The notes under the pieces: model-generated
Told to the model about the DNA's origin: nothing
Database searches by the model: none
Seen by the model: only the letters and a program-made list of their open reading frames with translations
Made by a program: the position numbers and the translations under genes
Part shown: positions 22,788-42,112 of the stretch, piece after piece
Numbering within the stretch: the first letter of the stretch is position 1
Layout: each line of letters opens with the position of its first letter
Origin: Paenibacillus sp. FSL H8-0079
Lineage (GTDB): Bacteria; Bacillota; Bacilli; Paenibacillales; Paenibacillaceae
DNA: 64,000 nucleotides
Reading direction: 5' to 3'
NCBI RefSeq assembly: GCF_037991315.1
Contig: NZ_CP150300.1
Span: 2,046,001-2,110,000 of the forward strand

Positions 22788-23366
22788 TTACAGAAACTCA
22801 TCGATTTCATTCGTTCGGAACGTATACACTTGTTTTTCATCTACATGGTAAATGCTCACCACACTGGTATCCCGATCAAAATTCAAAATGCGGCAAGGAA
22901 TGCTCTGATGTTTACCGTTTTTGTTGTTGACAACAATACGGGTTAGACGATTTTCTTTAATAAGCGTGTCAATCCACGCATCAAACGAATTTCCTTCGGA
23001 AACATTGGATGTTTGGGGGGCAGGCTTTTTCTCGCTAACTGGTTTTTCTTGCTGATTCTGTGCTTTGACTGGAGCAGGTGAGGCAGGTGTCTGTGTTGCA
23101 GTGGACGCCTTCTGTGCTGCGTTGGCTTGTGATTTTTTACGTTCGTTGTGAAGGGTGACGAAGGAGTCCTTCTTGGACTGGAGTGTCGCTTCAATAATTT
23201 TGCCTAGCTCTATGCCGGATTGAATCCGAAAGTCCGCAATTTGTTCCTCTTTGTTTATGAATTCCAACAGGGACTGCAGTGCCAATGCATTTGAGCGGCT
23301 CTTAATAAGTATATCGACATTAAATAAAAAGCCGATTTCCTCTTGATTGGATAAGGTTTCTTTCAT
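22788..23366 (-). CDS. Hypothetical protein with two small domains and a Pro/Ala linker
   Basis: A 192-residue protein I do not recognise. An N-terminal helical segment (about 1-65) is followed by a low-complexity linker rich in Ala, Gln, Pro and Lys (about 72-122). A C-terminal beta-rich domain (about 125-192) contains IPCRILNFDRDTSVVSIYHV, which has the look of an Sm/Hfq-like strand order; that fold is only a guess. It is transcribed toward the shared terminator at 22715-22766. Confidence 0.65.
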   Translation of the reverse strand: MKETLSNQEEIGFLFNVDILIKSRSNALALQSLLEFINKEEQIADFRIQSGIELGKIIEATLQSKKDSFVTLHNERKKSQANAAQKASTATQTPASPAPVKAQNQQEKPVSEKKPAPQTSNVSEGNSFDAWIDTLIKENRLTRIVVNNKNGKHQSIPCRILNFDRDTSVVSIYHVDEKQVYTFRTNEIDEFL

Positions 23367-23633
23367 TCATCCCAGCCCCGTTAAAAAGTATGTCAGCATA
23401 TAAAACGCTTCAATACACTATATCATTAAAAAGGCAATAATCATAGTGCCAGAGACGCAGAAATATGCAGAAACGATATGAATCAAGACCCGGAGTGTCC
23501 CTTAATTTCTACCCATAATAGAACTTATATTCTTCCTTTTTCATCCCCTGATCATCCTGTTTGCCTGCGTCAGTCGTGAGGGTCTAATCTATAATTTATA
23601 TAACAGGACAGGAAGCAACAGGGGGAATCGACA

Positions 23634-26354
23634 ATGGGCAATGCATATCAGGATCGATTGAGGTACGTATATAAAGTTACATCTTCGAGAATTAGAAAAG
23701 CGGATTATAATCTCCATCTTACCTATCAAGAAGCGACAGTAAATGGAGAAGTGGCATCTATTGGAAGCCATCAGGTGTTTCGTTTTATAGATCATATCCG
23801 AGGCTACAAGGAGAGAGAGCGAGATCTGGCTAGAATCAAGCTGGACATAGAGCAATTAAAAGCTTTGAAAACCAATGCTGAGCATAAAAGAACAATGAAG
23901 AAATTACATGAAGAACTGAAAAATCTGAAATTTGTCGATGATTACCTGCTGGTGGTCATTGAAAATAATAAAGACTACGATCGGCTGAATTCATGGAAAG
24001 CCTTTTCCATCAACGGCAAAAAATACAAGCGTCTATTGGCTACAACAGGTGGTGCCAAAAGTTCGACGGTCATCTATGTGAGTGAGGATATTCACCCGCT
24101 TTTGGAGAAAAGATTGAATAACGGCAGAGATCCGAATAAAGAGCTGGTTCCTGCCAAACTGGAGGCATATAAAGCTCTAGCCTGTAGTACAAGCACACCT
24201 GTGTCACATCCCGAACGAGTATTGGTTGTTCAGGATTGCATAACCGAATTTGGCGCAGACATCATTCAGATTGATGATACCGAGACAGAGTTTCCTCGTG
24301 TTGAGAGTAGGAAAAATGAGCCTATTCAGATGAATATGAGTGACGGATTCGGTCTTATCTCTCCTGCACTTAGTGAACTTTGGGCAACCGAGTTGGGGCA
24401 TGCATATATCCCGAGTGGATTTTGTATTCGTAATAGCTTCTGTAAAGGTATGGTATTTACATTTGATTATCACGCATTTGCTGATCAAGTTGCAGGCAAG
24501 TATATGGTGGACGATGCCTGGGGTAATCCTGTGGATATTCTAGAGGTAGACCTGATCATCACAACGTCCATGCTCAAAATATGGAGCTCGTACAACAGTA
24601 TCGACGATTATTTGTTATGTTGCGGTTATTATGGCTACACGTTCAGTGTGACGAAAGTTACACCCGAAGAACTGGAGGACGAGCGTCATTTAAATTACCA
24701 GTTCATTCAATCGCTTCAATTAGATGATAACGAGATTGGTGAACTCATTACTCCCACGGTGGACTCGATTAAGGATGTGCTAGGTGAGGACTATCGCAAG
24801 GCACTGTTATTCCTCAAAGGAATTCATATCCATGAGAATGACTACAGAAATAGTCCGGATGATTATATCAAAGGGCTGATGGTAGACCCACGACTTATAG
24901 ATGATCCTTTTGTGCGGAGCAAAATTCATACATTAATACGTAAGCGAATGAATGAAGCCAAGATCGGGGTTCTGAGAGTTAAAGGCAATTTCAGCATTAT
25001 TTCTGGCGATCCCTATACATTGTGTCAGAGCATATTTGGCTTACCTTTAACAGGATTGCTAAACTCGGGTGAGTTTTACTCCAGATATTGGAATGAGCGG
25101 CATGTAGACCGCGTGGCTTGCTTCAGAGCTCCAATGACTTGTCATAACAATATCAAGGTGCTTCGTTTCCAAAACACGGATGAGATGCAGCAATGGTATC
25201 GCTATATGAACACGGTTACGATCTTGAATTCATGGGATACGACGACGCATTCTTTAAATGGTGCAGATATGGATAGTGATCAGGTATTAACTACAGATAA
25301 CACAACGATTCTTGGTTCAATTCAGGAGCTGGATGCGATTGTATGTGTACAAAAAACCTCAGCCCAAAAAATTCCGGATGAGAAGGATCTGATCCAGGCT
25401 AACAAGGATAGTTTCGGTGATCTAATCGGTTTTACAACGAACAAAATTACATCGATGTTCGATGTATTAGCCAATTATGAGGAGCATAGTGCAGAATATC
25501 AGGAAATGATGTACCGAATTCAATGTGGTCAGCATTATCAACAAAATGCCATTGACCAGGCCAAAGGTATTGAATGTAAAAGAATGCCGAAGCACTGGTA
25601 TGATATTCGCGCTGCGGTGACGGACGAGTCTGCCTTGAAAATGGTAGCGCACAAGAAGCCTTACTTTTTCATATACAATGACCTGGAGCAGAAAAAAGAA
25701 TATACCACCTATGTAGAAAAAACGAGTCAGAAGTGCTTGCAGCTCTTTGGTATGACTGTGGATGAATTGGTTTCGAAAAAGGAGTTATCTCCGGACCAGG
25801 AACAGTTCCTTGCACAGTATGAACAGAGAATGCCTGTATCCACGGCACCTTCTGTGATGAACCGGTTATGCCATCAAGTGGAAGACGAGTTCAACAAGTT
25901 AAAGTTAAAACAGACCGAGAGTCCGTTTGATCATACGATATTGAAGAGTACCAAGAAATATTCCCAGGCTCGTTACAAAGAGATCCAACGATTATATCAG
26001 ATGCATAACGAAGAATTACGTAGTTATATGACTAACTTGCGCAAGAGTAAGGTGAAAAAGGAAGAAAGATCTGCCCGATGGCAGTTGTTTGTTTCACGCT
26101 TTAAGGAGCAGGCGCTGGAGATCTGTACTAACGAAGAAGATCTGTGCAATATGATTGTGGACATGTGTTATCGAAATGCGGAGAAATCAAAGCAATTTGT
26201 ATGGGATGTGTCAGGAGATCAGATTATTCGCAATCTATTGCTCAGCAATGATCATATCATCCATTATCCGGTTAGAGACCCGGAGGGCGATATTGAATAC
26301 GCGGGAAGAACCTTTAAAATGACCCAAATGCATATGAAGGAGCAACGCCCTTGA
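23634..26354 (+). CDS. YonO-like single-chain RNA polymerase (double-psi beta-barrel family)
   Basis: A 906-residue protein, practically the length of SPbeta YonO (905). The catalytic metal motif DxDxD is visible as Asp545, Asp547 and Asp549 in NGADMDSDQV. It is preceded by a barrel-like FRAPMTCHNNIKVLRF stretch and a Trp-rich segment, the same order as in QDE-1/YonO polymerases; the usual DxDGD has Ser in place of Gly. A charged helical region lies at about 55-100 and a basic helical region near 770-830. YonO transcribes late genes of SPbeta from DNA without sigma factor. ATG follows AGGGGGAAT. The stop overlaps the next gene by four bases, and structural-looking genes follow. Assignment rests on motif, length and context. 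Confidence 0.8.
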   Translation: MGNAYQDRLRYVYKVTSSRIRKADYNLHLTYQEATVNGEVASIGSHQVFRFIDHIRGYKERERDLARIKLDIEQLKALKTNAEHKRTMKKLHEELKNLKFVDDYLLVVIENNKDYDRLNSWKAFSINGKKYKRLLATTGGAKSSTVIYVSEDIHPLLEKRLNNGRDPNKELVPAKLEAYKALACSTSTPVSHPERVLVVQDCITEFGADIIQIDDTETEFPRVESRKNEPIQMNMSDGFGLISPALSELWATELGHAYIPSGFCIRNSFCKGMVFTFDYHAFADQVAGKYMVDDAWGNPVDILEVDLIITTSMLKIWSSYNSIDDYLLCCGYYGYTFSVTKVTPEELEDERHLNYQFIQSLQLDDNEIGELITPTVDSIKDVLGEDYRKALLFLKGIHIHENDYRNSPDDYIKGLMVDPRLIDDPFVRSKIHTLIRKRMNEAKIGVLRVKGNFSIISGDPYTLCQSIFGLPLTGLLNSGEFYSRYWNERHVDRVACFRAPMTCHNNIKVLRFQNTDEMQQWYRYMNTVTILNSWDTTTHSLNGADMDSDQVLTTDNTTILGSIQELDAIVCVQKTSAQKIPDEKDLIQANKDSFGDLIGFTTNKITSMFDVLANYEEHSAEYQEMMYRIQCGQHYQQNAIDQAKGIECKRMPKHWYDIRAAVTDESALKMVAHKKPYFFIYNDLEQKKEYTTYVEKTSQKCLQLFGMTVDELVSKKELSPDQEQFLAQYEQRMPVSTAPSVMNRLCHQVEDEFNKLKLKQTESPFDHTILKSTKKYSQARYKEIQRLYQMHNEELRSYMTNLRKSKVKKEERSARWQLFVSRFKEQALEICTNEEDLCNMIVDMCYRNAEKSKQFVWDVSGDQIIRNLLLSNDHIIHYPVRDPEGDIEYAGRTFKMTQMHMKEQRP

Positions 26355-27109
26355 AAATCATTCTGAATGAACGTCAACATGCCGAGCAAGCAATTGCACA
26401 TGGGAAAATGGATAAGAAACCAACTAAAACTTTGATATGTTTAGCTAAATACGGGCTTGAACAGGGGAAGAACGCCGAAGATGCGTATGCGTTGTTAAAT
26501 CAGTTTATGACCAAATACTATCCAGACTACAATGCTGTCCAGTGGGATACATTTCTCAATCGTATCATTAAGCAATCTCAGAAGTATATCAAGATAAGGA
26601 AGGAGGCAGGCAAGAGCACGCTAATTGAGATTGATCATGTACCTGTGATACATGAAGAACTTCAAAAGATCAAACAACTTAAAAGTAAACGACTTGAGAA
26701 ATTGGCCTTTGTTTTACTGGTCTACAGCAAGATTAATAATCGAATCAATGAAAATGATACGTATTGGATTAATAATGAATGGAAAGAAATCTACGGCGAT
26801 AGCCAAATGGCGGTAAGCAAAAAAGATCAGGGGTTATTGGTGCACAAACTTATTCAGTTAGGGTACCTCAAAGAAAGTAAACGCGTCGATTCAACTAACG
26901 TACAGGTTTTATACGCTGCGGAGCATGGTGAGGTTGCCTTCCAGCTAGTTCGCTTCGATGACTTTGTGTTGGAGTATTCTCGCTGGAAAGGAGAAAATAT
27001 TAAAAATTGTACCGTATGTGGAAAACGGATGCTGGCAAAATCGAACCGAATGAAATACTGCAAGGAATGCAAAAAAATTGGCATTAATCCCATTAGAGAA
27101 CTTCTCTAA
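26351..27109 (+). CDS. Zinc-ribbon protein coupled to the YonO-like polymerase
   Basis: A 252-residue protein I do not recognise as a family. It starts with TTG overlapping the polymerase stop (TTGA), with AAGGAGC inside the polymerase's last codons. The N-terminal 90 residues are helical. A middle part (about 115-200) could form a winged-helix fold (KRLEKLAFVLLVYSKI, then LVHKLIQLGYLKE). The C-terminus has four zinc-binding Cys, 220/223 and 237/240, as in CTVC and CKEC. DNA binding, and thus a template- or promoter-recognition role for the polymerase, is an inference from coupling and fold impression. Confidence 0.7.
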   Translation: MKIILNERQHAEQAIAHGKMDKKPTKTLICLAKYGLEQGKNAEDAYALLNQFMTKYYPDYNAVQWDTFLNRIIKQSQKYIKIRKEAGKSTLIEIDHVPVIHEELQKIKQLKSKRLEKLAFVLLVYSKINNRINENDTYWINNEWKEIYGDSQMAVSKKDQGLLVHKLIQLGYLKESKRVDSTNVQVLYAAEHGEVAFQLVRFDDFVLEYSRWKGENIKNCTVCGKRMLAKSNRMKYCKECKKIGINPIRELL

Positions 27110-27255
27110 AGCCAGACACAGCAATGCTTTTCATGGTTGTTCAAGAATTTCTTTAATGATAAGCCAGAGACAGGTTTCCTAGTTATGGGGGAGGTATTAA
27201 CTTGGAAACAGTCTTATAAAGAAAATATGCTACATAACGCTTAGGTAGGTGAATT

Positions 27256-28017
27256 ATGTCAAATGGGATAACTTTAGCACATGTAGAGTCTTTAATTAGA
27301 GAAGCGGTGAAACATAGCGGTCCTGGACAGCCTGGAGATTCTGGGGAAACCGAACTCGCCATCAAACGGGCACTGGAGGCTGCTGGCGAAGCCTTACAGG
27401 CTGCCGGAAAAGCAAAAGAGGCTTATCAGACGACTCGACTTGTGTACCAGAGTCCAGTTGCTGATTTTGAGGAGTTAAGTATGCAGTACTCTTCTCCTGA
27501 AATAGGCTGGACGGTACAAACGTATAAGGATGGCAAAAGATATCGTTTTGATGGACAGACATGGGTAGAGATTGATGTATTTGGTCAAAACCTTCAGGTG
27601 GTTAATTCCGATATGGATGGGCTCATGAGTAGAGCTGAACACCTGAAATTAAATGAGATTCCGTTGGAAGTACAGGATCGCGTTATGGTCTTTTGCAAAG
27701 AATCACGGGTGTACCCGGAAGTACTGGGGATTCTAGCCCCCTTTCCATTCAATGGCGAGATTTTACACGTAAAGGGCTACTGTGGAGTTTCTGGAGATAC
27801 CGCAACTGAAATAAGAATCGAACGATCCAAGGATCTCATTCACTGGCAGGATGTGATGGGGAGTCCACTGAAATTTGAAGCATTTCAACATCAAGATGAC
27901 GGTGAGGCTACATTTGAGACCAAAAAAGTGGAGACTGGAGATATCTTCAGAATCAACATCATTGAAGCAGGTTCAAACATTCAACATCTTACAATTCAAT
28001 TAACCATAAGAACATAA
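27256..28017 (+). CDS. Phage tail-like structural protein
   Basis: A 253-residue protein. A short collagen-like Gly/Pro segment (GPGQPGDSGE, about 22-31) and an Ala-rich helix lead into a small region with RYRFDGQTWVEID, common in tail-fibre N-terminal parts. A C-terminal beta-sandwich (about 140-253) with ERSKDLIHWQDV resembles F5/8- or fibre-type modules. The family is not certain. It opens the structural block behind the polymerase genes; a SigA-like TTGGAA/TATGCT pair lies in the 145-base gap before it. Confidence 0.6.
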   Translation: MSNGITLAHVESLIREAVKHSGPGQPGDSGETELAIKRALEAAGEALQAAGKAKEAYQTTRLVYQSPVADFEELSMQYSSPEIGWTVQTYKDGKRYRFDGQTWVEIDVFGQNLQVVNSDMDGLMSRAEHLKLNEIPLEVQDRVMVFCKESRVYPEVLGILAPFPFNGEILHVKGYCGVSGDTATEIRIERSKDLIHWQDVMGSPLKFEAFQHQDDGEATFETKKVETGDIFRINIIEAGSNIQHLTIQLTIRT

Positions 28018-28036
28018 AAAAAGGAGATTGATTATA

Positions 28037-28579
28037 ATGACACAACCAATTATTACATGGATGGACGCAACACATAGCAAGGAGATTGTAGCACCGTTTG
28101 ATTATGGTGTTATTGATGCAGATACCAAAAGTGAAATTCGTATTTTTAATGTGTGGAACAACAAAGGTGGTGCGACGGATGTGTCCAAAATGGAGGACTG
28201 CACCTTTACAACGCGGGATATGGATGGGGGGACTGGTGATACGGTTAAATACGATATTGAAGCTGTTAAAAACAACTGGTTTCATGTGCAAGTGGACTCA
28301 CTTGGGGAGAATGATTTGGATGAAGAGAGCTCTCGTGTAGGCAAGGACTTTTCGAAGCCTATTGGAACTACGGGCAAAACCACGGTGGATTATTCAGGAA
28401 CACCTTATGCAACACCGCTAGTACCGGGAGCAAAAGAGATTTTGGGAGTCAATAATAATGGAAATCAAGAAGACGCCGCAGGTAACTATGTAACGCTGTC
28501 TATTCAATGCGAAGTACCCTTGAATGCTCGTAGTGGTAAACAAGAGTTCAAGAAACGTATCTCCTATCGTTACGTTTAA
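28037..28579 (+). CDS. Putative phage structural protein
   Basis: A 180-residue acidic protein, not recognised. It begins TQPIITWMDATHSKEIVAPFDYGVIDADT and reads like a beta-rich virion or tail component. The ATG at 28037 is preferred to an in-frame TTG because AAGGAG is ten bases upstream. A terminator follows directly, so this gene and the one before form the first transcript of the structural block. Confidence 0.6.
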   Translation: MTQPIITWMDATHSKEIVAPFDYGVIDADTKSEIRIFNVWNNKGGATDVSKMEDCTFTTRDMDGGTGDTVKYDIEAVKNNWFHVQVDSLGENDLDEESSRVGKDFSKPIGTTGKTTVDYSGTPYATPLVPGAKEILGVNNNGNQEDAAGNYVTLSIQCEVPLNARSGKQEFKKRISYRYV

Positions 28580-28646: not shown

Positions 28647-29267
28647 GTGATTTTAGGTCAGAAACAGTACTCTCGTTCACCTGTATCTCAAGCTTATATA
28701 TGGATTGCCGATTATTATGATGGAACATATCTGAGTGAGTATGATCTTCAGACACAACATGCACACCGCTTTTATGACATCAACAAAGAGAAGTTGGTGT
28801 TATTCGGATTGATGGGTCAAGGATCCCAAGTTTATTACAATGTTGCCAATGGGATCTTTCACATTAATGCTGATCGTTACTCCATATCTTATGAATGTGA
28901 GGAGCAGGAGTACCCTTTAACCGGGAGGACGTTTGTGTACAATGACATCATCCAATTCAAAAATGGGTCCTCAGAAGCGAATATGGCTGGATTTTCAGGG
29001 CAAGGGAATTCAGGGGCTTTCCGAAATACGATTGAATGTTTTAACTTTGGTTACAAAAAAACAATGAACCTGAACGATGCACAAATTAATTTCCAATGCG
29101 TTTGTTCCCTGCCTCTAAAGGAATCTGTATTCTTTCATATAAAAATTTCTTCTAACCTGGACTTGCCTGGGCAACTCGTTATTCGTAAAAATGGGTTTGT
29201 CGTAGATCGAATCATAGCCCCTCTGAAGGCAAATCATGCTGGGATCATAAACTGGGACATTCGTTAA
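28647..29267 (+). CDS. Hypothetical structural-block protein
   Basis: A 206-residue protein, not recognised. GTG start behind GAGGAGGG. Predominantly beta-strand-like, with aromatic-rich N-terminus (AYIWIADYYDGTYLSEYD) and a C-terminal LPGQLVIRKNGFVVDRI stretch. No signal peptide or membrane segment, which fits a cytoplasmically assembled particle better than a secreted protein. Confidence 0.55.
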   Translation: MILGQKQYSRSPVSQAYIWIADYYDGTYLSEYDLQTQHAHRFYDINKEKLVLFGLMGQGSQVYYNVANGIFHINADRYSISYECEEQEYPLTGRTFVYNDIIQFKNGSSEANMAGFSGQGNSGAFRNTIECFNFGYKKTMNLNDAQINFQCVCSLPLKESVFFHIKISSNLDLPGQLVIRKNGFVVDRIIAPLKANHAGIINWDIR

Positions 29268-29300: not shown

Positions 29301-29873
29301 ATGGCAATTCAAGAAATTCTACTAGATATAGATCTGTCTGTAGGTGTTTTTCAAGATACGATAGTTGAGGATCAGAAGTTGAAATTAAGGGAACTTGGTC
29401 ATGATGCGGACGGTAATCCAATCTATCCTGCTACTGGATCTTGGGAGTCTACTGCGATTCGAATTCAGGATAAGATCGCATCATTTAAAGGTGTGGCTGC
29501 AAAGGTAGATGTTGCGGGGGGCGCAGCATACAAAATCTACTGGAGTACATCTGAGGATGGCTTTGAGTGGCTGGAGTATGAGGAAGTCTCAGCTAATAGC
29601 GCTGTATCCCAATCTCCTGCAAAGTATGCGAAGGTGAAAATTGAGATTTTTGCAGAAAAGAAATATTCGAACTTTTACATAGACGATTTTAACAAGAAGG
29701 ATAAATACAGTAATTCTTTTATTGAAAGTGAATCTGGTTCACTAGGCTTAAAGAAACTATATCAATTGAACATGGAACGAGCATCTGACACTCCAACAGG
29801 CATGGTGTTACGTCAGAAGGTTGAAAAAGCGAAATTTCAAAAAGTAGATGGAATCAGAGTGAGTAAGGGGTGA
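29301..29873 (+). CDS. Hypothetical structural-block protein with discoidin-like strands
   Basis: A 190-residue protein with no signal peptide. The middle part (WESTAIRIQDKIASFKGVAAK, then IYWSTSEDGFEWLEYEEV) resembles the strand pattern of F5/8 type C sugar-binding folds, but too weakly to name. ATG follows GGTGGTGAG. It ends four bases before the next start, so translation is coupled. Confidence 0.55.
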   Translation: MAIQEILLDIDLSVGVFQDTIVEDQKLKLRELGHDADGNPIYPATGSWESTAIRIQDKIASFKGVAAKVDVAGGAAYKIYWSTSEDGFEWLEYEEVSANSAVSQSPAKYAKVKIEIFAEKKYSNFYIDDFNKKDKYSNSFIESESGSLGLKKLYQLNMERASDTPTGMVLRQKVEKAKFQKVDGIRVSKG

Positions 29874-29877
29874 TTTT

Positions 29878-30570
29878 ATGGCAGTTCCAGCCACTACAGG
29901 GCAGTTGAGAGAAAAGCTATCTGATATGGAGATCGGAGACTATATTGTTTGGAAGTACGACAATACAATAAATGGATATATTTTCGGAGGAAGTACGACG
30001 GGGTATACAGAAATTCCGCTAACAGGAAATCCATTAGCCAGTATGCCTTTGAAATATTTTTGGTATGTCATCAAAGTGGATAGAGGGTTGCTAATAGCAG
30101 ATAGAGTTGTAAATAACACGATAACATGGGATTGGTTAAATTCCAATAAGTTTGTTGAAGGTTCCCCGCGCATTATAAGTGAAACATCAGGAATTGTCCG
30201 TAGTATATCTGGTGGAGTGGGATATGCAGATGCGAATGGGAAACTGAGTATGAAGGATTTAGGATTGGGGGCATTCCCCAATAATAATGAATATGACAAA
30301 TATATTATGAAGTCCAGTTTGGGTGGCAAGGCTACACCTAATGATGATAATGTTTGGCATCACCATAACGTGTTTTGTTGGGCAAAGGAAACACCTGTTC
30401 TCGGTTCATGGACTACGAACAAAGGAACTGCCTTAACAGCGAATTCAACAAGCAGAATAGTACGAGGGTTTGAGTCACGAGATGACAATAGAGGTGTTGC
30501 TTTTACAGGAGGCTCAGCATCTCAGAATTATATTGGGTTTCGTCCAGCATTTGAATATAAGGAGGTGTAG
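29878..30570 (+). CDS. Tail-fibre-like module protein
   Basis: A 230-residue protein forming one complete module: MEIGDYIVWKYDN, then FYW-type strands and LIADRVVNNTITWDWLN, then NEYDKYIMKSSLGG and a C-terminal IGFRPAFEYKEV. The same module occurs in the next protein, there split by an inserted domain. Homologous modules occur in tail and adhesin proteins of Paenibacillus and related phages, as far as I recall. No export signal. It ends three bases before the next start. Confidence 0.6.
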   Translation: MAVPATTGQLREKLSDMEIGDYIVWKYDNTINGYIFGGSTTGYTEIPLTGNPLASMPLKYFWYVIKVDRGLLIADRVVNNTITWDWLNSNKFVEGSPRIISETSGIVRSISGGVGYADANGKLSMKDLGLGAFPNNNEYDKYIMKSSLGGKATPNDDNVWHHHNVFCWAKETPVLGSWTTNKGTALTANSTSRIVRGFESRDDNRGVAFTGGSASQNYIGFRPAFEYKEV

Positions 30571-30573: not shown

Positions 30574-33500
30574 ATGGCTACAGTAGGAGATCAACTGGCA
30601 CTACCAGAATCAGGATGGAGACGATATGATGATACACATGTTGGTTTAAAGTATACAGGGAGTTGGTACAAAGTAACCAGCACAAATTACTATAATGGCA
30701 GTGTGAATGTAACGACTAGAGCGGCAGACAACAACTATGTGGCATTTTCTTTTTATGGAACTAAAATTAGAATCATCTCTGATATTGCTCAAGATAGACA
30801 TTCGGACAATACGATTACTGTAGATGGTGTAACGGAATCATTTAATACAAATAAAACAGGGACTGGTGTATTAAATGCAATCGTTTATGAAAAAACGAAC
30901 TTACCTCTTGGATTTCACACAGTTACAATTACGGTAGGGCATAATCGTACTAACTTCATCATGGATGCTATAGATATTGATGAGACAGGTTACTTATATG
31001 GGTATTCTTTAACAGCGCCTGAAGATGGATGGAAAAGGTATGATGATGCTGAGCCATCTTTTAGCTACACGGGGTTTACCCAAAGGAACCTTGCCGTTGC
31101 AGGTGCATATGAGGGCAAATCTTCTTACAATGCAAATGGGTCTGCTGTAGGGGAAGTAGTTTTCTCTTTCGTAGGAACTAAGATAAGGATTATCTCTTCA
31201 ACTACCTCCACAGTCAGAGCAGAGAGCATATCTGTTTCCATTGATGGTAGTGTTGAGACATTTACAGCTAGAACCGCTCAGAGTCAAGTGCAAACGCTTG
31301 TATATGAAAAGAAAAATCTACCTTACGGGACGCATACTGTGAAGATTTTCGACTTCAAGGGTGTGATGACTGGAACTGCCGCCGCCGCTTTCGGTCTAGA
31401 CGCTATAGACATTGATTCCGATGGTCGCTTAATAAGATCTGTTGGATCTGAAGCAACAGCACCAGAAGATGGATGGAGAAGGTATGATACGGATGACTAC
31501 GCACAGTTCTTGGGTACAGATTGGAAGACAGTAGCGAATTCCACAGGGCGTGTATTTGAAGGTGGCTCTGTTAAGTATAGTAATGTAATAGGAAATCAAA
31601 TAGAATTCTCCTTTGCAGGAGACAAGCTTAGACTTATTGCAGAGTATGGTAGCGCATATGATACAAATGTTGAAGTTAGTATTGATGGAGTAATAAAATA
31701 TATCAATCTATCAACTTCATCTTCTTCTATTCAATATCAACCTCAAAGGATAGTTTTTGAACAATTTGGTTTAACTGATGGGGTTCATGAGGTTATAGTT
31801 AAAAAAGTTAGTGGCACAGGTAATTTTCATATTGATGCTGTTGATATTGATGTAAATGGACGCATGGTAAGACCTATTGGTTCTCAATTGACCACGCCAG
31901 ATGAGGGTTGGAAAAGGTATGACAATAGTTCAGCTATGAAGTACGAAGGGTTAGGTTGGGTTTCTGCTATAGGTGATGCTACTACTTATGCAGGAACAGG
32001 CCACTATGTTCCACTTAATGGGGCATCATCAAATAGCATTGAATTTAATTTTTATGGGACAAAATTGAGGATCATTGATCTGTATTGGACTAATAGAGTG
32101 AATAACGTGACCATAGATATTGATGGGAAAGTCTCTACATGGAATCCAAACAATCCAGCAAATAAGTATCAAATATTGGTCTTTGAAGCGTCAGGCTTGG
32201 AGAAAGGTTTACATAAAGTGAAGCTTTCTACAACAAGTTTGAGTGGAACATTTTCTCTTGATGCTGTAGACATTGACCTTGATGGACGAATGTTTCATCC
32301 AGATGAAGTGACAAATATTACAGAACTTGAGATTGGCAAGCGAATCAGATGTCATTACATTGCGGCTAGGAATAGTGCTGGAGTATTTAGTAGGCTTGGA
32401 GAAGAGACTTTTGACTTTATAAGTCCTTCAGGAAGTCCTATCCCAATGGGAGATTTTTATTGGATTATGGTTGAAGACTGGAATAAGAGAAAATTTCTAG
32501 TGGCTGATAGAAACATACAGAATGCTGTATCTTGGGATTCAATTAACAAGGAGGGTTATGTTTTTGGATTTGAATCAACAACTATTTCTAAGACGCATAA
32601 TAAGACACCATATCTAACTTCAGCTTCCGATGTATATAGCGTAACTGGTGTTGGAAATTCCCTGACCAATGAAGATCCTTGGAGAGCCTTTTCGTTAGCC
32701 GGATCAAGTGGATGGTGGGGGTCATATGCAGGTACAGGTTTAATATTAGACTGTAAGCGAAAAGTGAAGTTTGGAGAAATAAAAGTAATTGCTTTCAGAG
32801 GAGCGAACATGGCTTCAGTGATTGATGTGTATGGAAGTGATAATAATGTTGACTATACTCTAATAAAAAGTTGCCAAAAATCTACTTGGATCGACTCAGA
32901 ACAAGCTACATTTTATTTTGACGAACCCGTAGAATACAGATATTACAAGATTATGAAGACCACACAGGTATCGAATAGTAATGCGGCAAGATTAAACCTT
33001 GAGTTAAGTTATTCAGAGAAAATAGACAATAATCATATTTTTAAAGTAAGACTTCTCACAGGCGGCATTAACGCAACAGATAAGGATAATGAATGGGATA
33101 AGTATATTGTTAACTCAACATTAAATGGGAAAATCATTGCTGGTGACAACAATGTATGGAATTATGGTGGTGGAGCTTCGTGGACTTCCACAACTAATGC
33201 CGCTGGTTCGGGAAACAGAACTGGACGAGGTGCAAGTGGCAATGCAGGAGCAAGCGGATTTAATCCAACTTCTTATGTAGCGGCGGCAACTGCTACAGGA
33301 TTTAGACCATTAATGGAGATTGAAATTCTTCCAATGAACAGATCGTTCATTAATTATGATGGTGCATATAGAACGATAAGTGAAAATATATTATATATAT
33401 ACTCAACCGAAACGGCTGCTCCCATGATGACATCAAATACAGCACCTTCAGGTGTAGCAAGTGCAAGTAGTATATTTAATTTTACTTATGATGCTTGGAA

Positions 33501-34101
33501 AGCATTTAATGGAAGCTCAGTTGATTTCAACGATTGTTGGGCTACTGTAAGCGGAACTGTTTCTGGATGGTTGGCATATAAATTTTCTTCTTCAGTAAGT
33601 GTTTATGAATATTTAATAACATCGCGAAACTCTTCAGATGCTGAGGAAGCAAAAGGATCAGCACCAAAGAAATGGACATTTGAAGGATCTAACGATGGAG
33701 TTAACTGGACTGTATTGGACACAGTAACCAACTCGAATAATTGGATTGCCAATGAAACTCGAACATATAGATTACCTGAAAACATGATTTCAGATTACCT
33801 CAACTATAGATTGAACATCACCGAGAATAATGGTTGGGCTACTTGGACAGTGGTTACAGGACTTAAACTATTTTCGAGAACAACGATGGTAAGAAAAGGA
33901 TGGAACACAGTATCAACAACTTTACCATCAGAAAACACTTTTATTAATGAGGGAATTGATGATCTGTCTGTTTTAGATAGAAAAAACGAAGATTTCGTTC
34001 AGACTATGACTGCCCATGGATCGTTAGGATCAGGCAAGTTATTTAAAGAAAGAATCGATCTGAAAAAGTTTTTCGAAATAACAAATGTAAGTGTGAAGTA
34101 G
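30574..34101 (+). CDS. Giant multi-domain tail-fibre/adhesin-like protein
   Basis: An 1175-residue protein without signal peptide. Four successive beta-sandwich repeats of about 140 residues (about 5-143, 146-289, 293-433, 438-573) each start GWKRYDD-like, contain a FYGTKIRII-type strand and end in DAIDID. This is the carbohydrate-binding-like module common in cell-surface glycosidases. Next comes the module of the preceding gene (about 581-668 and 820-915) interrupted by a discoidin-like domain (about 669-819), then an F5/8 type C domain (about 947-1105) and a C-terminal domain shared with three following proteins. The content argues for glycan binding. Whether it sits on a virion, a tail-like particle or the cell is unknown. 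Confidence 0.75.
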   Translation: MATVGDQLALPESGWRRYDDTHVGLKYTGSWYKVTSTNYYNGSVNVTTRAADNNYVAFSFYGTKIRIISDIAQDRHSDNTITVDGVTESFNTNKTGTGVLNAIVYEKTNLPLGFHTVTITVGHNRTNFIMDAIDIDETGYLYGYSLTAPEDGWKRYDDAEPSFSYTGFTQRNLAVAGAYEGKSSYNANGSAVGEVVFSFVGTKIRIISSTTSTVRAESISVSIDGSVETFTARTAQSQVQTLVYEKKNLPYGTHTVKIFDFKGVMTGTAAAAFGLDAIDIDSDGRLIRSVGSEATAPEDGWRRYDTDDYAQFLGTDWKTVANSTGRVFEGGSVKYSNVIGNQIEFSFAGDKLRLIAEYGSAYDTNVEVSIDGVIKYINLSTSSSSIQYQPQRIVFEQFGLTDGVHEVIVKKVSGTGNFHIDAVDIDVNGRMVRPIGSQLTTPDEGWKRYDNSSAMKYEGLGWVSAIGDATTYAGTGHYVPLNGASSNSIEFNFYGTKLRIIDLYWTNRVNNVTIDIDGKVSTWNPNNPANKYQILVFEASGLEKGLHKVKLSTTSLSGTFSLDAVDIDLDGRMFHPDEVTNITELEIGKRIRCHYIAARNSAGVFSRLGEETFDFISPSGSPIPMGDFYWIMVEDWNKRKFLVADRNIQNAVSWDSINKEGYVFGFESTTISKTHNKTPYLTSASDVYSVTGVGNSLTNEDPWRAFSLAGSSGWWGSYAGTGLILDCKRKVKFGEIKVIAFRGANMASVIDVYGSDNNVDYTLIKSCQKSTWIDSEQATFYFDEPVEYRYYKIMKTTQVSNSNAARLNLELSYSEKIDNNHIFKVRLLTGGINATDKDNEWDKYIVNSTLNGKIIAGDNNVWNYGGGASWTSTTNAAGSGNRTGRGASGNAGASGFNPTSYVAAATATGFRPLMEIEILPMNRSFINYDGAYRTISENILYIYSTETAAPMMTSNTAPSGVASASSIFNFTYDAWKAFNGSSVDFNDCWATVSGTVSGWLAYKFSSSVSVYEYLITSRNSSDAEEAKGSAPKKWTFEGSNDGVNWTVLDTVTNSNNWIANETRTYRLPENMISDYLNYRLNITENNGWATWTVVTGLKLFSRTTMVRKGWNTVSTTLPSENTFINEGIDDLSVLDRKNEDFVQTMTAHGSLGSGKLFKERIDLKKFFEITNVSVK

Positions 34102-34127
34102 GGTTTGAATGCTCTACTTCTTTTTGT
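34095..34127 (+). terminator. Terminator overlapping the stop codon of the giant gene
   Basis: GAAGTAGGG (34095-34103, including the TAG stop) pairs with CTCTACTTC (34112-34120), one mismatch, followed by five T. Confidence 0.7.
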
Positions 34128-34167
34128 ATGTAAAATAATGATTTCAATTAGGAAGGGAGTTGATTAT

Positions 34168-34941
34168 ATGTTAGAAGAAACAATAGATGGCAGATGGAGT
34201 AGAAATTCCAGTTATACAGCTCCAAATCAAGGTCTAACCTCAATAACAACTAGTGGATCTAGAAAATTGGGAGAAGGTCGCTTTTATTTTGAGATTACAA
34301 TGCCTACTTCTGGAAATCTAACTTATAGATATCTTGGTATAACAGAGACTAATTCTCCTGCATGGGTTTCTAATGGGAATCTAACAAAGACAAAAATTTT
34401 AGTTTGGGGTCCTCTAACTCTAGGTGCGATATATGGCATAGAACTTGATCTTTCTTCTAGCGATACAGGAATGGCAAGAGTGAGAGTTAATGGTGGTGCA
34501 TTTTCGAATTGGACAACTTTAAGCGACTATCAGGGAACGAAATTGCAATCTTTTAGACCAATGTTACTCGGAGGATCAAGCTCTAATACAGCATTATCAT
34601 TTACAATTAGCACTGGTCAATCTTCAATGCCATATTTGCAAAACATATTTGAATATAAATTATATTCATTTGATGGTAGTATGCAATCTTCATTTAATAA
34701 GATATTACTTTTATCAGGTGGGGTCAAATATTCTTTAAAGAATTCAACTATTATAAAAATGGAGACAAATAGTGAAAAGAACTTTGTTAATTATGGTGCA
34801 GATTCTACGTTTGATTTTAACGGATATGTGGTCAAACAAAAAGATATAACAAGTACAAGTGTTACATTGGGATCTGGTAAAACCCTTGAGCACACAATTG
34901 ATATGTCAAAACGCCGAGTAGATAAAATTATACTAGGCTAA
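34168..34941 (+). CDS. SPRY-like binding protein with shared C-terminal domain
   Basis: A 257-residue protein. The first 170 residues (GRWSRNSSYTAP, then GEGRFYFEITM, YRYLGITETN, YGIELDL, and FRPMLLGGSSS) follow the strand order of SPRY/B30.2 domains, a protein- or glycan-binding fold. The last 60 residues are the domain shared by four proteins of this block, ending KRRVDKIILG. Start at 34168 is set by GGAAGGGAG; a longer frame upstream overlaps the terminator and lacks a site. No signal peptide. Confidence 0.65.
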   Translation: MLEETIDGRWSRNSSYTAPNQGLTSITTSGSRKLGEGRFYFEITMPTSGNLTYRYLGITETNSPAWVSNGNLTKTKILVWGPLTLGAIYGIELDLSSSDTGMARVRVNGGAFSNWTTLSDYQGTKLQSFRPMLLGGSSSNTALSFTISTGQSSMPYLQNIFEYKLYSFDGSMQSSFNKILLLSGGVKYSLKNSTIIKMETNSEKNFVNYGADSTFDFNGYVVKQKDITSTSVTLGSGKTLEHTIDMSKRRVDKIILG

Positions 34942-35001: not shown

Positions 35002-36411
35002 ATGGCAAGAGGGAATCCCTATGCTTTAGCGTTTAATGGAACAAATAGTCAGGTAAATATTGCTTCCAATGCCGCATTGAATTTTACACAGGCAAGCAAG
35101 TTCTCTATAGAAATGTGGTTTAAAGCTAACTCTATTGGTAGCAACATGACGTTATTCAACAAACAAAGAGCAACAACAAATGAGTTTGTGATTAGTGTTG
35201 ATGTACAGGCTGATGGATATATATTATACGCTATAGGCAAACAGAATGTAGCGCCAGTTAATGCGAGAAGCAAGAATCCCATTATATCTGGAAAATGGTA
35301 TCATATAGCGGCTATTTCAGATGGAACTAATATTTCTCTTTATTTGGATGGGGTTATTCAAGAGTCTGTATTAATCTCAGTTACAGGTACTACACAATCT
35401 TTAGCAAATGCACTTATTGGACATTGGTATTTTAATGCAACGAGCTATTTCAATGGCCAGATAGACGAATTCAGAATATGGAATACTAACAGGTCTGTTG
35501 ATGATGTTAATAAAAATAAAAATTCATATCTCAAAGGAACAGAATCTAATTTGATTTTGCTATATAGAATGAATGAGGGTTCTGGTTTGACTACTATAGA
35601 CTCATCACCAAGTAATATCTCTGGGACTTTGGTTAATGTTACTTGGACTAAGGGGATGGTTGATATGTTCGGGAATAGTGAAAAATTCTTGATTACATCC
35701 GAAGATGGAGTCATTCATTCTGTGACAGGTTGGAACCCTAAAGATAGTTTAATTTCTCCTCTAACTGCCAATATATCATCTGATGGCGAAGCAAGAAGTA
35801 GTTCAAATTATGATTTAACATATGATGCTTGGAAAGCATTTGATGGTGTGACTACAGGAAACCAAAATGGATGGGCTACCCCCATAGGAACTACTAATGG
35901 ATGGCTGGAATTTTATTTTTTCAGACCTCAGATTGTAACATTGTATTCGATGGTAAGTAGGAATCCTGTTTCACACATATTTGAAATGCCTAAAGATTGG
36001 ACATTTGAAGGTTCTAATGATGGATTTATTTGGGAAATATTAGATACCCAGAAAAATATATCTTGGGCATTAGGAGTTTCGAAAGCATTCTCCTTCAATA
36101 ACTATAAGAGTTTTAACAGATATAGAATAAACATCTCGGCAAATGGGGGTTCATTCACACAGAACTATTTATGTATTGGTGAGGTGACAATGGGGGGGAC
36201 TGAAGAGGTACAACTAAAGTCAATTCCCAATTTTACTGAAGAGTACTACATTAGATATGGGATGAATAAAAACACAGAAATAAGCTTAAATGTAGTACTA
36301 TCCAAAAGAAATTATCTTTCAAACTCATCAACCTCTTTAGGATTAGGAAAGGTATTCAAACAGAGAATAGATAGGTCAAAGCATAAAGTGCACAAAATTA
36401 TATTAGGTTAG
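35002..36411 (+). CDS. LamG plus F5/8C domain binding protein
   Basis: A 469-residue protein. Residues 1-205 are a laminin-G/concanavalin-like domain (LAFNGTNSQVNI, FSIEMWFKAN, WYHIAAISDGTNISLYLDG, GQIDEFRIWN). Residues about 250-400 are an F5/8 type C (discoidin) domain with DWTFEGSNDGFIWEIL. The last 60 residues are the shared C-terminal domain. Both folds bind glycans in many proteins. Start set by GAAAGGAGATG. No export signal and no catalytic domain. Confidence 0.75.
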   Translation: MARGNPYALAFNGTNSQVNIASNAALNFTQASKFSIEMWFKANSIGSNMTLFNKQRATTNEFVISVDVQADGYILYAIGKQNVAPVNARSKNPIISGKWYHIAAISDGTNISLYLDGVIQESVLISVTGTTQSLANALIGHWYFNATSYFNGQIDEFRIWNTNRSVDDVNKNKNSYLKGTESNLILLYRMNEGSGLTTIDSSPSNISGTLVNVTWTKGMVDMFGNSEKFLITSEDGVIHSVTGWNPKDSLISPLTANISSDGEARSSSNYDLTYDAWKAFDGVTTGNQNGWATPIGTTNGWLEFYFFRPQIVTLYSMVSRNPVSHIFEMPKDWTFEGSNDGFIWEILDTQKNISWALGVSKAFSFNNYKSFNRYRINISANGGSFTQNYLCIGEVTMGGTEEVQLKSIPNFTEEYYIRYGMNKNTEISLNVVLSKRNYLSNSSTSLGLGKVFKQRIDRSKHKVHKIILG

Positions 36412-36440: not shown

Positions 36441-36466
36441 GTTTATTTTGAAAGGAGATGTTACTA

Positions 36467-37606
36467 ATGGCTATAGTAGGAGATCAGTTACCATTTCCCG
36501 AATCAGGGTGGCAAAGGATTGATGATGAAAATAAGAATATCAAATATAAAGGTAATTGGATTTATGTTTCAGGAGATCCAAATACGTATGCGGGAACAGC
36601 TCATTACTTTACTCTAAGTGGAGCAACAACAAATTCGATCGAATTCTATTTTTATGGAACTAAGTTAAGAATCATTGATATGTATTGGTCGAACAGAGTG
36701 AATAATGTAACTGTAGAATTAGATGGGGTTATCTCTTCATACAATCCCAATAACTCTACAAACAAATACAGGGTAATTGTATTCGAAAGACTAAACTTAC
36801 AATATGGTTTTCACAAAGTAAAGTTAACAACAACAAGTACAAGCAATAACTTTTCTCTAGACGCTATAGATATTGATTCTAATGGCGAAATTACCGCACC
36901 TCCTCTGAGTAAGTTCTTGATTTCATCAGAAGACCAACACTACAGTATTACAAATAAATACAAAGATAATGCTATTCCTGCAATGACATCTAACACTAGT
37001 CCGAATGGAATTGTAGATGCAAGTTCGTTTTACACGACATTTTATCCATGGAAAGCATTTGATAGAATTATTGATCCAAATGGATGGGTTACTAATATCA
37101 ATGTTCTAACAGGATGGTTAAGTTATGAATTTGATTCACCTAAAACAATCTCCGCCTATTCAATTCAAGCAGGAACCACTCCTGTAAACAGACCTCCAAA
37201 AACTTGGACATTTGAGGGGTGGGATGGATCAAAATGGGTTTTATTAGATTCAAGAATGAATGAACCCAACTTTGCTGGAGAGGAATATCGCCTCTACAAT
37301 TTTAAAAATAAGGTTGCTTATAAGAGATACAGAATTAATGTCACTGCGAATCAAGGCGCTGGAGACTTCTTGGCGATTGGTGATTTAGGTATGTACGAAC
37401 TCGATAAATACATATCCTCCGTAGACAATTCAGAAACAAGCTTTCTTGAACATGGGATGGAAAAAGGGATGATTATTGATCTAGAGGATGAATTCATCGA
37501 AAGAAAGTCCGTGGTTAAAGATCATAAAAAAATTGGTTCAGGAAAGGGGTTCAAGCAGAAAATCGACACAGCTAAAATACCAATAAAGAAAGCATCAATC
37601 ACATGA
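36467..37606 (+). CDS. Beta-sandwich plus F5/8C binding protein
   Basis: A 379-residue protein. Residues 1-140 are the same carbohydrate-binding-like module as in the giant protein and closest to its fourth repeat (both carry YFYGTKLRIID or FYGTKLRIID followed by an RVNNVT stretch). Residues about 160-310 are an F5/8 type C domain (KTWTFEGWDGSKWVLLD), then the shared C-terminal domain. The start at 36467 follows AAAGGAGATG; the in-frame codon three positions earlier sits in the ribosome-site spacer. Confidence 0.75.
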   Translation: MAIVGDQLPFPESGWQRIDDENKNIKYKGNWIYVSGDPNTYAGTAHYFTLSGATTNSIEFYFYGTKLRIIDMYWSNRVNNVTVELDGVISSYNPNNSTNKYRVIVFERLNLQYGFHKVKLTTTSTSNNFSLDAIDIDSNGEITAPPLSKFLISSEDQHYSITNKYKDNAIPAMTSNTSPNGIVDASSFYTTFYPWKAFDRIIDPNGWVTNINVLTGWLSYEFDSPKTISAYSIQAGTTPVNRPPKTWTFEGWDGSKWVLLDSRMNEPNFAGEEYRLYNFKNKVAYKRYRINVTANQGAGDFLAIGDLGMYELDKYISSVDNSETSFLEHGMEKGMIIDLEDEFIERKSVVKDHKKIGSGKGFKQKIDTAKIPIKKASIT

Positions 37607-37657: not shown

Positions 37658-39742
37658 ATGGCAACTTTAGGTCAAGCACTGCCGCTTCCAGAAGAGGGTT
37701 GGAAAAGGTACGATGATAACGAAATAATCTTTAAGTATTCAAGCGGATTTGTTTCCTCTCCAAATGAAGTATATTACAATGGTACCTCTAGACTAGCTTC
37801 AATAGCAAATTCAACTTTAGAATTTCAATTTAAGGGCACAAAGCTAAGGATAATTGGCAACAGGCATAACAGAGGATCATCTAATATATCTGTCTCTATT
37901 GATGGGTTAACTGAAGTTTTCAGTGAAAATCATGTAGATATTGTTCAACAAGCACTAGTCTATGAAAAATTAAATTTGTCCGATGCTATTCATACTGTGA
38001 AAATCACCACCAATGACACCAATTTTGTTCTTTTTGACGCGATAGATGTGACCGAGATGTTCTATAAGACATTTGTGCGCTCTAACAGTCTATATTACTA
38101 CTATTTAAACTCATCGTGGAATCAACTGTCTAGTATTGATCCAACTGAGCAAGACTATAAAATTTACGGTATGGATGATTTGTTGATTGTTCCTGAATCC
38201 GCGTGGGCACAGTTTCAAGGTGAAGTAGAGTTATTTCACTATACAAACGACCCAGTACAAGAAGTATCCTTTAACATCGAAACCGAATCTTTTACTCTCG
38301 AAGAGGAGTGGGCAGACAAGGATATTGAAGTACTTTATTATACAGACGATCCCAATGCTACAGAATCGGTGGTAACAATCGAAACCGAGCCCTTCACCCT
38401 AGCCGAAGAATGGGAAGACAAAGAGATCAAAATCATTGAATACACCGATGACCCGAACCAAACCGAATCAACGATTACAATCGAAACCGAACCGTTTACC
38501 CTCTACGATGAGTTGGGTGACAGTGTAGACGTTCTATACTACACTGACGATCCCTCCAAAACGTCAGCAGAACTAAATATCACGGCTAACTACTCCCCAT
38601 TGGATGAACTTGAGGGAGATTTTGACGTGGTTACGTGGACGAATGATGAAGAGGTAATCGCCGGAAATCGAGACATGATGCTGACGTATAACGCGCTACC
38701 GTTTGAACAGTTAATTGTGCAACCAACAGACATAGCGTTATATGGAGATGTCAAAAAGGTTATTGCTACGAAAGTAACGGAGAACAGTCCGCAAGGTATA
38801 TTAAGGATGGCTGCTTCGTTCGACTCAGGGCTCACATGGAAGACATACCGTTTCAACAAGTGGCTTGATCTGGATATTCAGAATACAACCCTATTCAAGA
38901 GAAAAGGAATGAATCTGGACACACTCAACGCCATCCCTGAAAAGAATTTAATAGCTTTAACACGAATCGCCTATTACTTCGATAGCAGTAAGCACTATGA
39001 AAACAGCTATTCGCTGGACGAAGTGAAGATGATCGTTGATGCACCGCGTAATGCGGTGGAGTTTAGAGATATGTCACTGCAATTGTTAAACACCACTGCC
39101 ACAATCGACCTGACCTTCTCTGGCAACAAACTTACAGGTGTGCTTGATGATGCAGATCAAGGCAAGGTTAAGTACCGCGTGTTGTTGAACGGTAAAACGT
39201 ATTATCCGGCGGATGGCAATTTTACGCGACTAGCAGCTTCACCATTCAATATTGAACTCAATATTGACGAGAGAAATGTTAATTTTGGCGTAGAGAATAT
39301 ATTGAAGGTTGAATTTCAGGACTATTGGGGTGCAGTAGACTCTCGGGAAACCAAGTTTATCGGATCGTATTCAGGATTAATGTTTATGGATGAGTCTGGA
39401 GATTTTCTTTCAGATACCTTTGGGGGAATTTTGAAACAACTTGATTATGGGGTGATCATTGCCGGACAGACGACATTAACGAAGAAAGTCAGAATTAAAA
39501 ACTTGCTTGGATATGCTGTGGATCATGTTTACCTGGAGATGGATAAGAAATTCGAAACGGGTGGTGTTGACGTCCAATTGTCCAGACAGGCCGATCCGTT
39601 TCTTCCGATCGATTATCTGACCTATGGTCTGATTCAACCGGAGGGTAGCATCGATTTTTATATTCGTATCGCAACAGATATTCATGCCAAGCCGAATCCG
39701 AATGGTAATTTTGAAATGAAGGTCACAGCAGACCGGGTGTAG
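37658..39742 (+). CDS. Mosaic tail-fibre-like protein with tandem 34-residue repeats
   Basis: A 694-residue protein. It starts with the carbohydrate-binding-like module (about 1-130, GWKRYDDNEIIFKY), then a linker containing YGMDDL that recalls the shared C-terminal domain of its neighbours. Four tandem 34-residue repeats follow (about 189-323, YTDDP then TIETEPFTL). The C-terminal 370 residues are beta-rich with no family I can name; DVTLMFMDESGDFLS-like strands and a bacterial-Ig-like tail are only impressions. Base composition shifts along the gene: the first 500 bases are A+T-rich, the rest is close to genome average, as if a foreign N-terminal module was joined to a resident gene. Confidence 0.65.
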   Translation: MATLGQALPLPEEGWKRYDDNEIIFKYSSGFVSSPNEVYYNGTSRLASIANSTLEFQFKGTKLRIIGNRHNRGSSNISVSIDGLTEVFSENHVDIVQQALVYEKLNLSDAIHTVKITTNDTNFVLFDAIDVTEMFYKTFVRSNSLYYYYLNSSWNQLSSIDPTEQDYKIYGMDDLLIVPESAWAQFQGEVELFHYTNDPVQEVSFNIETESFTLEEEWADKDIEVLYYTDDPNATESVVTIETEPFTLAEEWEDKEIKIIEYTDDPNQTESTITIETEPFTLYDELGDSVDVLYYTDDPSKTSAELNITANYSPLDELEGDFDVVTWTNDEEVIAGNRDMMLTYNALPFEQLIVQPTDIALYGDVKKVIATKVTENSPQGILRMAASFDSGLTWKTYRFNKWLDLDIQNTTLFKRKGMNLDTLNAIPEKNLIALTRIAYYFDSSKHYENSYSLDEVKMIVDAPRNAVEFRDMSLQLLNTTATIDLTFSGNKLTGVLDDADQGKVKYRVLLNGKTYYPADGNFTRLAASPFNIELNIDERNVNFGVENILKVEFQDYWGAVDSRETKFIGSYSGLMFMDESGDFLSDTFGGILKQLDYGVIIAGQTTLTKKVRIKNLLGYAVDHVYLEMDKKFETGGVDVQLSRQADPFLPIDYLTYGLIQPEGSIDFYIRIATDIHAKPNPNGNFEMKVTADRV
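38224..38625 (+). repeat. Four tandem repeats of about 102 bp (34 residues)
   Basis: Units begin near 38224, 38326, 38428 and 38527. Each encodes a Y(T)(D/N)DP motif, then TIETEPFTL or a variant and an acidic end. Units 1-3 are closest at DNA level; unit 4 has diverged. Confidence 0.8.
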
Positions 39743-41753: not shown

Positions 41754-41857
41754 GCGTTTAGGCTCTTGCCCAACTCTAAGCATCTGTACTTTATTGTGTA
41801 ACAGTCGTCTTCTCGTTATGTTACAATATGTTCATCACATATTAAGGAATGAAGACC

Positions 41858-42112
41858 ATGCGTCAAGAGGACAGCGTATTTGAACAGATTATGAAGCAGA
41901 AGAGATTGAAGCGTATCAAGCCTGAAACAAAAAAACTTCAAGTAATACATAAAAAGAAACTAGCTCAGGAGCAATTAAGTGAATTGGATGTCCAGTTCAA
42001 AAAAACGGTAGCTGAATCAATAGATCGAAGTGCACTTCATAGACGTGTACTGGGAATTAGAAGAGAGCTAACGGAGATAAGGCGATTAAAGAATGATGAG
42101 CATACGTTTTAA
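41858..42112 (+). CDS. Small basic helical protein, unknown
   Basis: An 84-residue Lys/Arg-rich, largely helical protein with no recognised family. The ATG at 41858 is chosen over one nine bases earlier because AAGGA abuts the earlier codon but is well spaced for this one. It could bind nucleic acid by charge alone, but nothing more can be said. It sits alone between the tail-like block and a poorly coding gap. Confidence 0.55.
   Translation: MRQEDSVFEQIMKQKRLKRIKPETKKLQVIHKKKLAQEQLSELDVQFKKTVAESIDRSALHRRVLGIRRELTEIRRLKNDEHTF

Follow-up and report, generated by a model that had tools for sequence, protein, structure and literature searches.

What is a relative of the phage RNA polymerase YonO doing in a bacterial chromosome, directly 5' of a block of phage tail-like genes? 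YonO is a processive DNA-dependent RNA polymerase that is needed for 37 late genes of phage SPbeta, whose transcription begins at a single site 5' of yonK (Forrest et al. 2017, PMC5467207); in the accessible parts of that paper, its promoter sequence and possible extra factors are left open, and chromosomal relatives are a matter of speculation only.

The locus under discussion lies in a 64-kb stretch of DNA from a soil Paenibacillus (the "window"), corresponding to 2.05-2.11 Mb of a 6.7-Mb single-contig genome. We regard it as probable that it is a chromosomally fixed, headless phage-tail locus equipped with its own YonO-family polymerase, the latter probably made of two chains. Genomes and loci are cited by our own handles (G and L numbers, respectively), G000 being the genome of the window.

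The polymerase gene and its zinc-ribbon partner

The polymerase and partner genes are located as follows:

23634..26354, +: YonO-family RNA polymerase core (RNAP), ATG start, 906 aa; assigned from profile, homology, motif and predicted fold
25257..25286, +: codons of NGADMDSDQV with the catalytic DxDxD; D545, D547 and D549 invariant in 107 sequences
26351..27109, +: partner gene, 252 aa, with a C-terminal zinc ribbon (CxxC...CxxC); candidate second RNAP subunit, after RNAP in 22/22 headless and 78/80 viral loci

That the first of these genes encodes a YonO-family polymerase is supported by homology, catalytic motif and predicted fold. The reading frame is not a chance one, given at least 3468 database matches at E <= 1e-3 among 7999 scored candidates, PHROG profile matches with a best score of 661 bits, and a mean pairwise dN/dS of about 0.08. 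Records of the SPbeta group are matched at 22-24% identity (tblastn, E 1e-15 to 2e-22), and a profile built from six relatives, with the window protein left out, retrieves YonO at E 6e-48. NGADMDSDQV corresponds to residues 542-551; G543 and the three aspartates show no variation in the RNAP alignment (107 sequences), and the position between the last two aspartates is occupied by G (27), Y (26), S (25), F (12), A (8), M (8) or L (1). The serine of DxDSD is, thus, an ordinary state, and it was ruled out as a mark of an inactive enzyme. The predicted structure shows a two-barrel RNA polymerase fold, with the two barrels taken together rather than dissected singly, and its top structural matches are RDR2 and QDE-1. 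Several RNAP homologues, one of them at 80% identity, carry precomputed matches to PF05183 (RdRP), and some bear the name RNA-dependent RNA polymerase; the window protein gives no PF05183 match up to E 10.

A preceding sequence-only reading had already pointed to the DxDxD motif, to the replacement of the glycine of DxDGD by serine and to the kinship with YonO, all of which were borne out. It had proposed a comparison with YonO and QDE-1, which returned the one by profile and the other among the best structural matches, and it would have been contradicted by a structure lacking double-psi barrels or by clear homology to another enzyme family, neither of which was found. Its statement that the length is almost exactly that of YonO had to be dropped, considering 906 aa versus the 839 aa encoded by SPbeta yonO (2520 nt including the stop codon).

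As a separate observation, two genomes that belong to different families, namely G277 (L151, ~6630-7050) and G447 (L248, ~6665-6900), have an RNAP gene that is broken directly behind its DxDxD codons. PHROGs divides the RNAP family near the same point into phrog_25339 and phrog_35857, and the break in G277 gives a weak group I intron match (E 0.037); possibly, the catalytic site is an intron hot spot.

The start of the partner gene overlaps the end of the RNAP gene by 4 nt, and the pattern CxxC-x(8-20)-CxxC is contained in 76 of the 78 viral partner copies and in 25 of 28 other copies. With 34.6 bits, 10.2 of which are bias (E 6.6e-11 among SPbeta frames), the partner profile aligns to the YonO frame (843 residues) over residues 739-839, zinc ribbon included; it matches none of 200 shuffles of the YonO C-terminal stretch and none of the RNAPs of other loci. 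Because the C-terminal part of the RNAP profile itself matches YonO residues 710-796 weakly, overlapping with the partner-profile match, only the last ~40 residues of YonO, i.e., the zinc ribbon, are clearly of partner type. This fits an arrangement in which YonO would unite core and ribbon in one chain and most of its relatives would be composed of two, with the partner possibly working together with RNAP as a polymerase subunit. The earlier designation "single-chain" may need correcting, as the partner seems to be a second chain; since YonO ends in a partner-type zinc ribbon, the polymerase family may have a second subunit that this label has hidden.

A tail block at one chromosomal site, in two forms

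The element spans about 23367 to 41848. Apart from RNAP and partner, the following genes belong to it or flank it:

22788..23366, -: left flank, 192-aa chromosomal gene outside the element; in 74/75 genus genomes, left of RNAP in 12/12 carriers
27256..28017, +: f12, 253 aa, corresponding to the C-terminal part of a 384-aa baseplate/fibre protein encoded by the long form; N-terminus different (phrog_11315; G040 alignment)
28028..28579, +: f13, phage protein, function unassigned in PHROG (phrog_11814)
28647..29267, +: f14, phage protein, function unassigned in PHROG (phrog_11178)
29301..29873, +: f15, possibly tail-related (phrog_21223; weak minor-tail match, phrog_3475, E 4e-5)
29878..30570, +: f16, fibre-associated protein (phrog_30895, also inside f17)
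30574..34101, +: f17, 1175-aa receptor-binding/fibre-type protein (CE2_N, F5/8 type C, phrog_17517 tail)
34105..34941, +: f18, fibre paralogue (C-terminal part of phrog_17517, E 5e-6)
35002..36411, +: f19, fibre paralogue with LamG-type lectin domain (domain/profile match)
36458..37606, +: f20, fibre paralogue (phrog_17517 tail)
37658..39742, +: f21, fibre/adhesin-type protein (phrog_10667, function unassigned; CE2_N)
39754..41712, +: f22, 652 aa, CBM96 domain, last element gene; in 12/12 carriers
41849..42112, +: f23, right flank, chromosomal; at seven element-free sites

The PHROG and domain matches agree with the tail-like block that had been described 3' of RNAP. Likewise, the remark that other phage core genes are missing from 40 kb is in line with the absence of any terminase, portal or capsid profile match between 17634 and 57633. 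Within the element, integrase, replication, head and packaging genes were not recognised in PHROG, domain and profile searches; judged by gene content, it would not qualify as an SPbeta-like prophage as regards integrase, replication and head genes. Its G+C content of 33-44%, versus 40-52% outside, is low, a feature shared with recent phage DNA. Of the genes on either flank, all that were checked belong to the host; f23 was ruled out as a member of the element, as it stands at element-free sites, and the further right neighbours, yunC and mtnA, are chromosomal as well. The fibre genes f17-f20 (30574-37606) share similar C-terminal stretches, e.g., SLGSGKLFKERID in f17, as if these fibres had one attachment or folding domain in common.

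RNAP is found at 78-100% identity in 12 of 75 genus genomes, including that of the window, and the element occupies one and the same site in all 12 carriers. The 192-aa gene and mtnA lie within a few kb of each other in 10/10 fetched non-carriers, seven of which have f23 between the two; in these 10 of the 63 non-carriers, blastp gave no match to the element in this interval. The chromosomal setting proposed previously is, thus, supported by carriers and element-free sites alike. At the element-free sites L123-L129, a few hundred bp separate the 192-aa gene from f23, which by eye are partly yunC-like; hence, the site may be rearranged rather than a clean insertion point. At a threshold of E <= 1e-10, an RNAP match is obtained in 26 genus genomes, 13 of which have distant copies (E 1e-28 to 9e-11) that were left out of the headless and complete classes; G006, G048, G023 and G044 are among these.

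The element exists in two forms. The long form, present in 4/12 carriers (G040, G049, G050 and G030, with G040 listed under the same species as the window strain), has ~16 kb of tail genes after RNAP and partner, followed by the fibres. This block begins with genes for 184-aa and 239-aa proteins and comprises a 247-aa protein placed as major tail protein (MTP; phrog_2729, whose label is virion structural), a pair of small chaperone-like genes, a tape measure of 2183 aa that contains a transglycosylase domain (phrog_4211, E 1e-256; PF01464) and a 1172-aa tail-associated protein (Tal; phrog_6211, YOMG_N domain), followed by further baseplate-type genes. The short form of the other 8/12 carriers, including the window, lacks the tube block and shows the order RNAP, partner, intergenic element, shortened f12, fibre genes. 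A search for MTP (E <= 1) gave no match in G000, G002 and G029, which have the short form, and one copy each in G040 and G049, and Tal has no copy in G000 (E <= 1e-10). Between G000 and G040, RNAP, f13 and f14 are ~98% identical, the partner 74%, f16 67%, and f17 56% over 61% of its length. Long and short forms are interleaved on the RNAP tree, which fits allele exchange by recombination.

Both forms are under purifying selection in RNAP, partner and fibres, as derived from mean pairwise dN/dS values (custom Nei-Gojobori script). These amount to 0.079 (7 short forms) and 0.067 (4 long forms) for RNAP, 0.13 (short) and 0.17 (long) for the partner, 0.06 to 0.30 for f12-f16, and 0.13-0.19 for f21 and f22, compared with 0.01-0.04 for the flanking DUF423 and mtnA genes and 0.16 for the 192-aa gene. 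Splits affect some of the genes f13-f17 in G037, G005 or G054 and the RNAP gene in G005, G054, G277 and G447, and one stop was flagged within the Tal match of G050. Split genes can mean decay in some lineages; as chromosomal genes of G005 and G054 are split or shortened as well, the breaks in these two genomes may be sequencing errors, and the RNAP breaks there were discarded as proof of decay.

Headless loci across Bacilli and competing explanations

At E <= 1e-100, RNAP was detected in 23 of 394 genomes of the family. Three of these (G025, G172 and G209) have prophage-type loci with terminase, portal and capsid genes, and 20 are headless, with 12 in this genus and 8 elsewhere. An order-wide search (392 genomes) added G447, with a headless locus, and G511, with one headless and one complete locus; both headless loci belong to another family. 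Terminase, portal and capsid profiles had no match in the 40-kb regions of the 22 headless loci, and head-gene profiles had none in the 3' extensions of three long forms. As a positive control, viral loci extending at least 9 kb past the partner were scanned for TerL, which was recovered in 50 of 53; among those without it is a headless Paenibacillus-type locus.

Lysis genes are distributed unevenly. In the four loci outside the genus that were searched with PHROG, G148 and G280 each gave a holin and an endolysin, G085 a holin, and G277 no lysis gene; a profile made from these holins detects further ones in G121, G119 and G115. Holin and lysin profiles have no match in the loci of this genus, and PHROG shows no separate gene for a holin or an endolysin in the element of the window.

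The RNAP phylogeny addresses the origin of these loci. A first tree was calculated without G005 and G054, and a careful tree, additionally without PMBT24, G277 and G447, comprises 38 sequences with 19 headless rows and 15 of the 80 viral loci. On it, the 19 headless rows require 4 changes (4-5 in bootstrap trees), and a tree grouping all headless loci was rejected (AU p 8e-61), whereby a single origin is ruled out. The simplest reading is that heads were lost about four separate times, with RNAP and partner left beside the tail, although losses and regains are not strictly separable. This suggests that phage tails have repeatedly been tamed by bacteria together with the phage's own transcription machine.

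The strongest competitor is a decaying remnant of an SPbeta-type prophage, in which RNAP would have been kept by chance and would be idle. Low G+C, loss of the tube in 8/12 carriers, the lack of recognised lysis genes in the loci of the genus and split genes in some genomes are compatible with it. However, the low dN/dS of RNAP and partner in both forms and the recurrence of head loss with both genes retained in about four lineages speak against idleness, and two of the genomes with breaks may simply contain sequencing errors; we, therefore, consider a remnant unlikely.

Less probable still, and in our view improbable, is that the element acts as a satellite or depends on a helper, lending its fibres or tails to the particles of some other phage, resident or infecting. 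This would account for the short form with its fibres and no tube, for fibre sets that differ between strains of the same species, and for related tails (57-58% Tal), presumably of prophages, in G006 and G048 of this genus. Yet integrase and packaging genes were not recognised in the element, neither Tal (E <= 1e-10) nor MTP (E <= 1) has a second copy in G000, and an SPbeta-type TerL query gave no match in G000 in a search run without positive control.

That the polymerase serves RNA silencing or phage defence, with the tail next to it by coincidence, is hardly credible despite RDR2 and QDE-1 as best structural matches and the RNA-dependent names of several homologues, since RNAP and partner precede the terminase in 50/53 viral loci and YonO is a DNA-dependent enzyme for late genes (PMC5467207, as far as its accessible text goes), and a defence role was ruled out upon a PADLOC scan of six locus proteins without a match.

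Candidate promoters, proposed mechanism and known systems

The candidate promoters are located as follows:

23590..23595, +: TATAAT, candidate -10 box of host type in front of RNAP, without clear -35 (by eye, upstream DNA of 12 carriers)
27147..27162, +: ATTTCTTTAATGATAA, window copy of an element conserved 3' of the partner, candidate RNAP promoter (motif search on 16 loci, position checked; viral loci have a related element)

Further upstream of RNAP, at 23521-23532, stands GAACTTATATTC, with similar sequences in most, not all, of the 12 carriers. We take it to resemble the Bacillus-type LexA box GAAC-N4-GTTC with one change, which would fit SOS induction.

Viral motifs were trained on 55 of 78 gaps 3' of the partner, once near-copies, short gaps and the headless Paenibacillus-type locus L159 had been removed. 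With more random starts in real runs than in shuffles, the strongest motif, an imperfect hairpin assigned to ~56% of the 55 gaps, reached a log-likelihood of 352 versus 106 +/- 6 for shuffles, and the motif following it, TTGATG-n-TATAATGAAAGGA, reached 360 versus 112 +/- 4.5, being model-assigned to 97% of gaps at scores between -6.5 and 29 bits. When 16 Bacilli loci were searched separately, nTTTnTATAGTGATAG was obtained, with 63.6 versus 47.3 +/- 3.5 (maximum 55.5) for 12 shuffles, a score that is inflated because some of the 16 loci are closely related.

The copy ATTTCTTTAATGATAA is retained in the short form, immediately upstream of f12. The viral-trained matrix does not single it out, the best gap site ranking 7th on the + strand in 40 kb of G000; in other loci, the rank of the best gap site ranges from 1st (G280) to 348th (G172). 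A loose, hand-made pattern of the window element has further occurrences in the 64 kb, three on the + strand and two on the - strand. Its core is TATAAT-like, resembling a host -10 box, and could be a host promoter. The conserved element is a candidate for the RNAP promoter, and RNAP may transcribe the adjoining block from its own promoters, a proposal based on repeated head loss with RNAP and partner retained next to the tail and on the conserved element.

The mechanism that belongs to the reading judged probable at the outset would proceed as follows. Host RNA polymerase, acting at a promoter 5' of 23634, would produce RNAP and partner, whereupon the RNAP core with its zinc-ribbon partner would start at the conserved element that closely follows the partner gene and transcribe all downstream genes as one operon, as YonO does for the SPbeta late genes. 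From the genes read in the long form, this operon would give rise to a non-contractile tail with tape measure, tail-associated protein and changeable receptor-binding fibres, i.e., an F-type-tailocin-like particle, which might kill relatives. The product of the short form would be fibre or receptor-binding proteins instead of a complete tail, because tube, chaperone, tape-measure and tail-associated genes are gone and the fibres remain. On the broader proposal, that several lineages of Bacilli have independently domesticated tails along with a two-chain YonO-type RNAP, so that a non-host polymerase transcribes a chromosomal operon from its own promoter and the stripped form expresses receptor-binding proteins alone, our judgement is evenly divided.

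The locus offers a testable case, with a defined target operon, a candidate promoter and a candidate second subunit; in addition, long and short forms occur naturally within one species, and the element-free sites can serve as controls. Should the proposal be true, a dedicated polymerase of the two-barrel superfamily can run tailocins, and a small two-chain model for the origin of multi-subunit RNA polymerases becomes available.

Among known systems, the F-type tailocins, such as the Listeria monocin (PMC6872733) and rhizoviticin (PMC10811719), are, as far as the accessible texts describe them, comparable in their headless, non-contractile tail with variable fibres, which the long form shares, and in their lysis genes, which several relatives of the window locus have. 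The window form differs in that it is without a tube. A complete siphophage-type tail is encoded in G040, G049, G050 and G030, not in the window and the other short forms (8/12); the window element gives no terminase, portal or capsid profile match, in keeping with F-type tailocins, and has no recognised lysis cassette. Because of the missing tube, we do not file the window locus as a tailocin. The monocin locus possesses a regulatory module of repressor and anti-repressor, according to the accessible part of PMC6872733. A tailocin with its own RNA polymerase was not described in the openly licensed tailocin literature searched, including a review whose main text does not contain the term "RNA polymerase" (PMC12090994); printed sources may differ.

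With SPbeta YonO, the window locus has in common the polymerase family, the DxDxD core, the position upstream of structural genes and a C-terminal zinc ribbon like that of the partner. In contrast, YonO is found in a complete phage and carries the ribbon in the same chain of 839 aa, whereas in the window core (906 aa) and partner (252 aa) are separate, with no head, replication or integration genes recognised beside them. As an additional observation, phage BUCT082 (L002, ~7250-9160) and SPbeta (L153, 4154-5835) have a similar long stretch free of annotated genes from an HU-type gene to yonK or its follower, and it is in this place that the YonO paper, in its accessible part, mentions an unannotated non-coding RNA (PMC5467207).

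More distant relatives are presumably the RNA polymerases of P23-45 (gp96), P32 (gp64), P74 (gp62) and the crAss-like phage phi14:2, which come from complete phages. Phages of the PMBT24 and BUCT082 types, finally, share an RNAP (38% and 31% identical, respectively) located directly before the partner gene; they differ by carrying terminase, portal and capsid genes between partner and tail, which is precisely the block that is gone in the headless loci.
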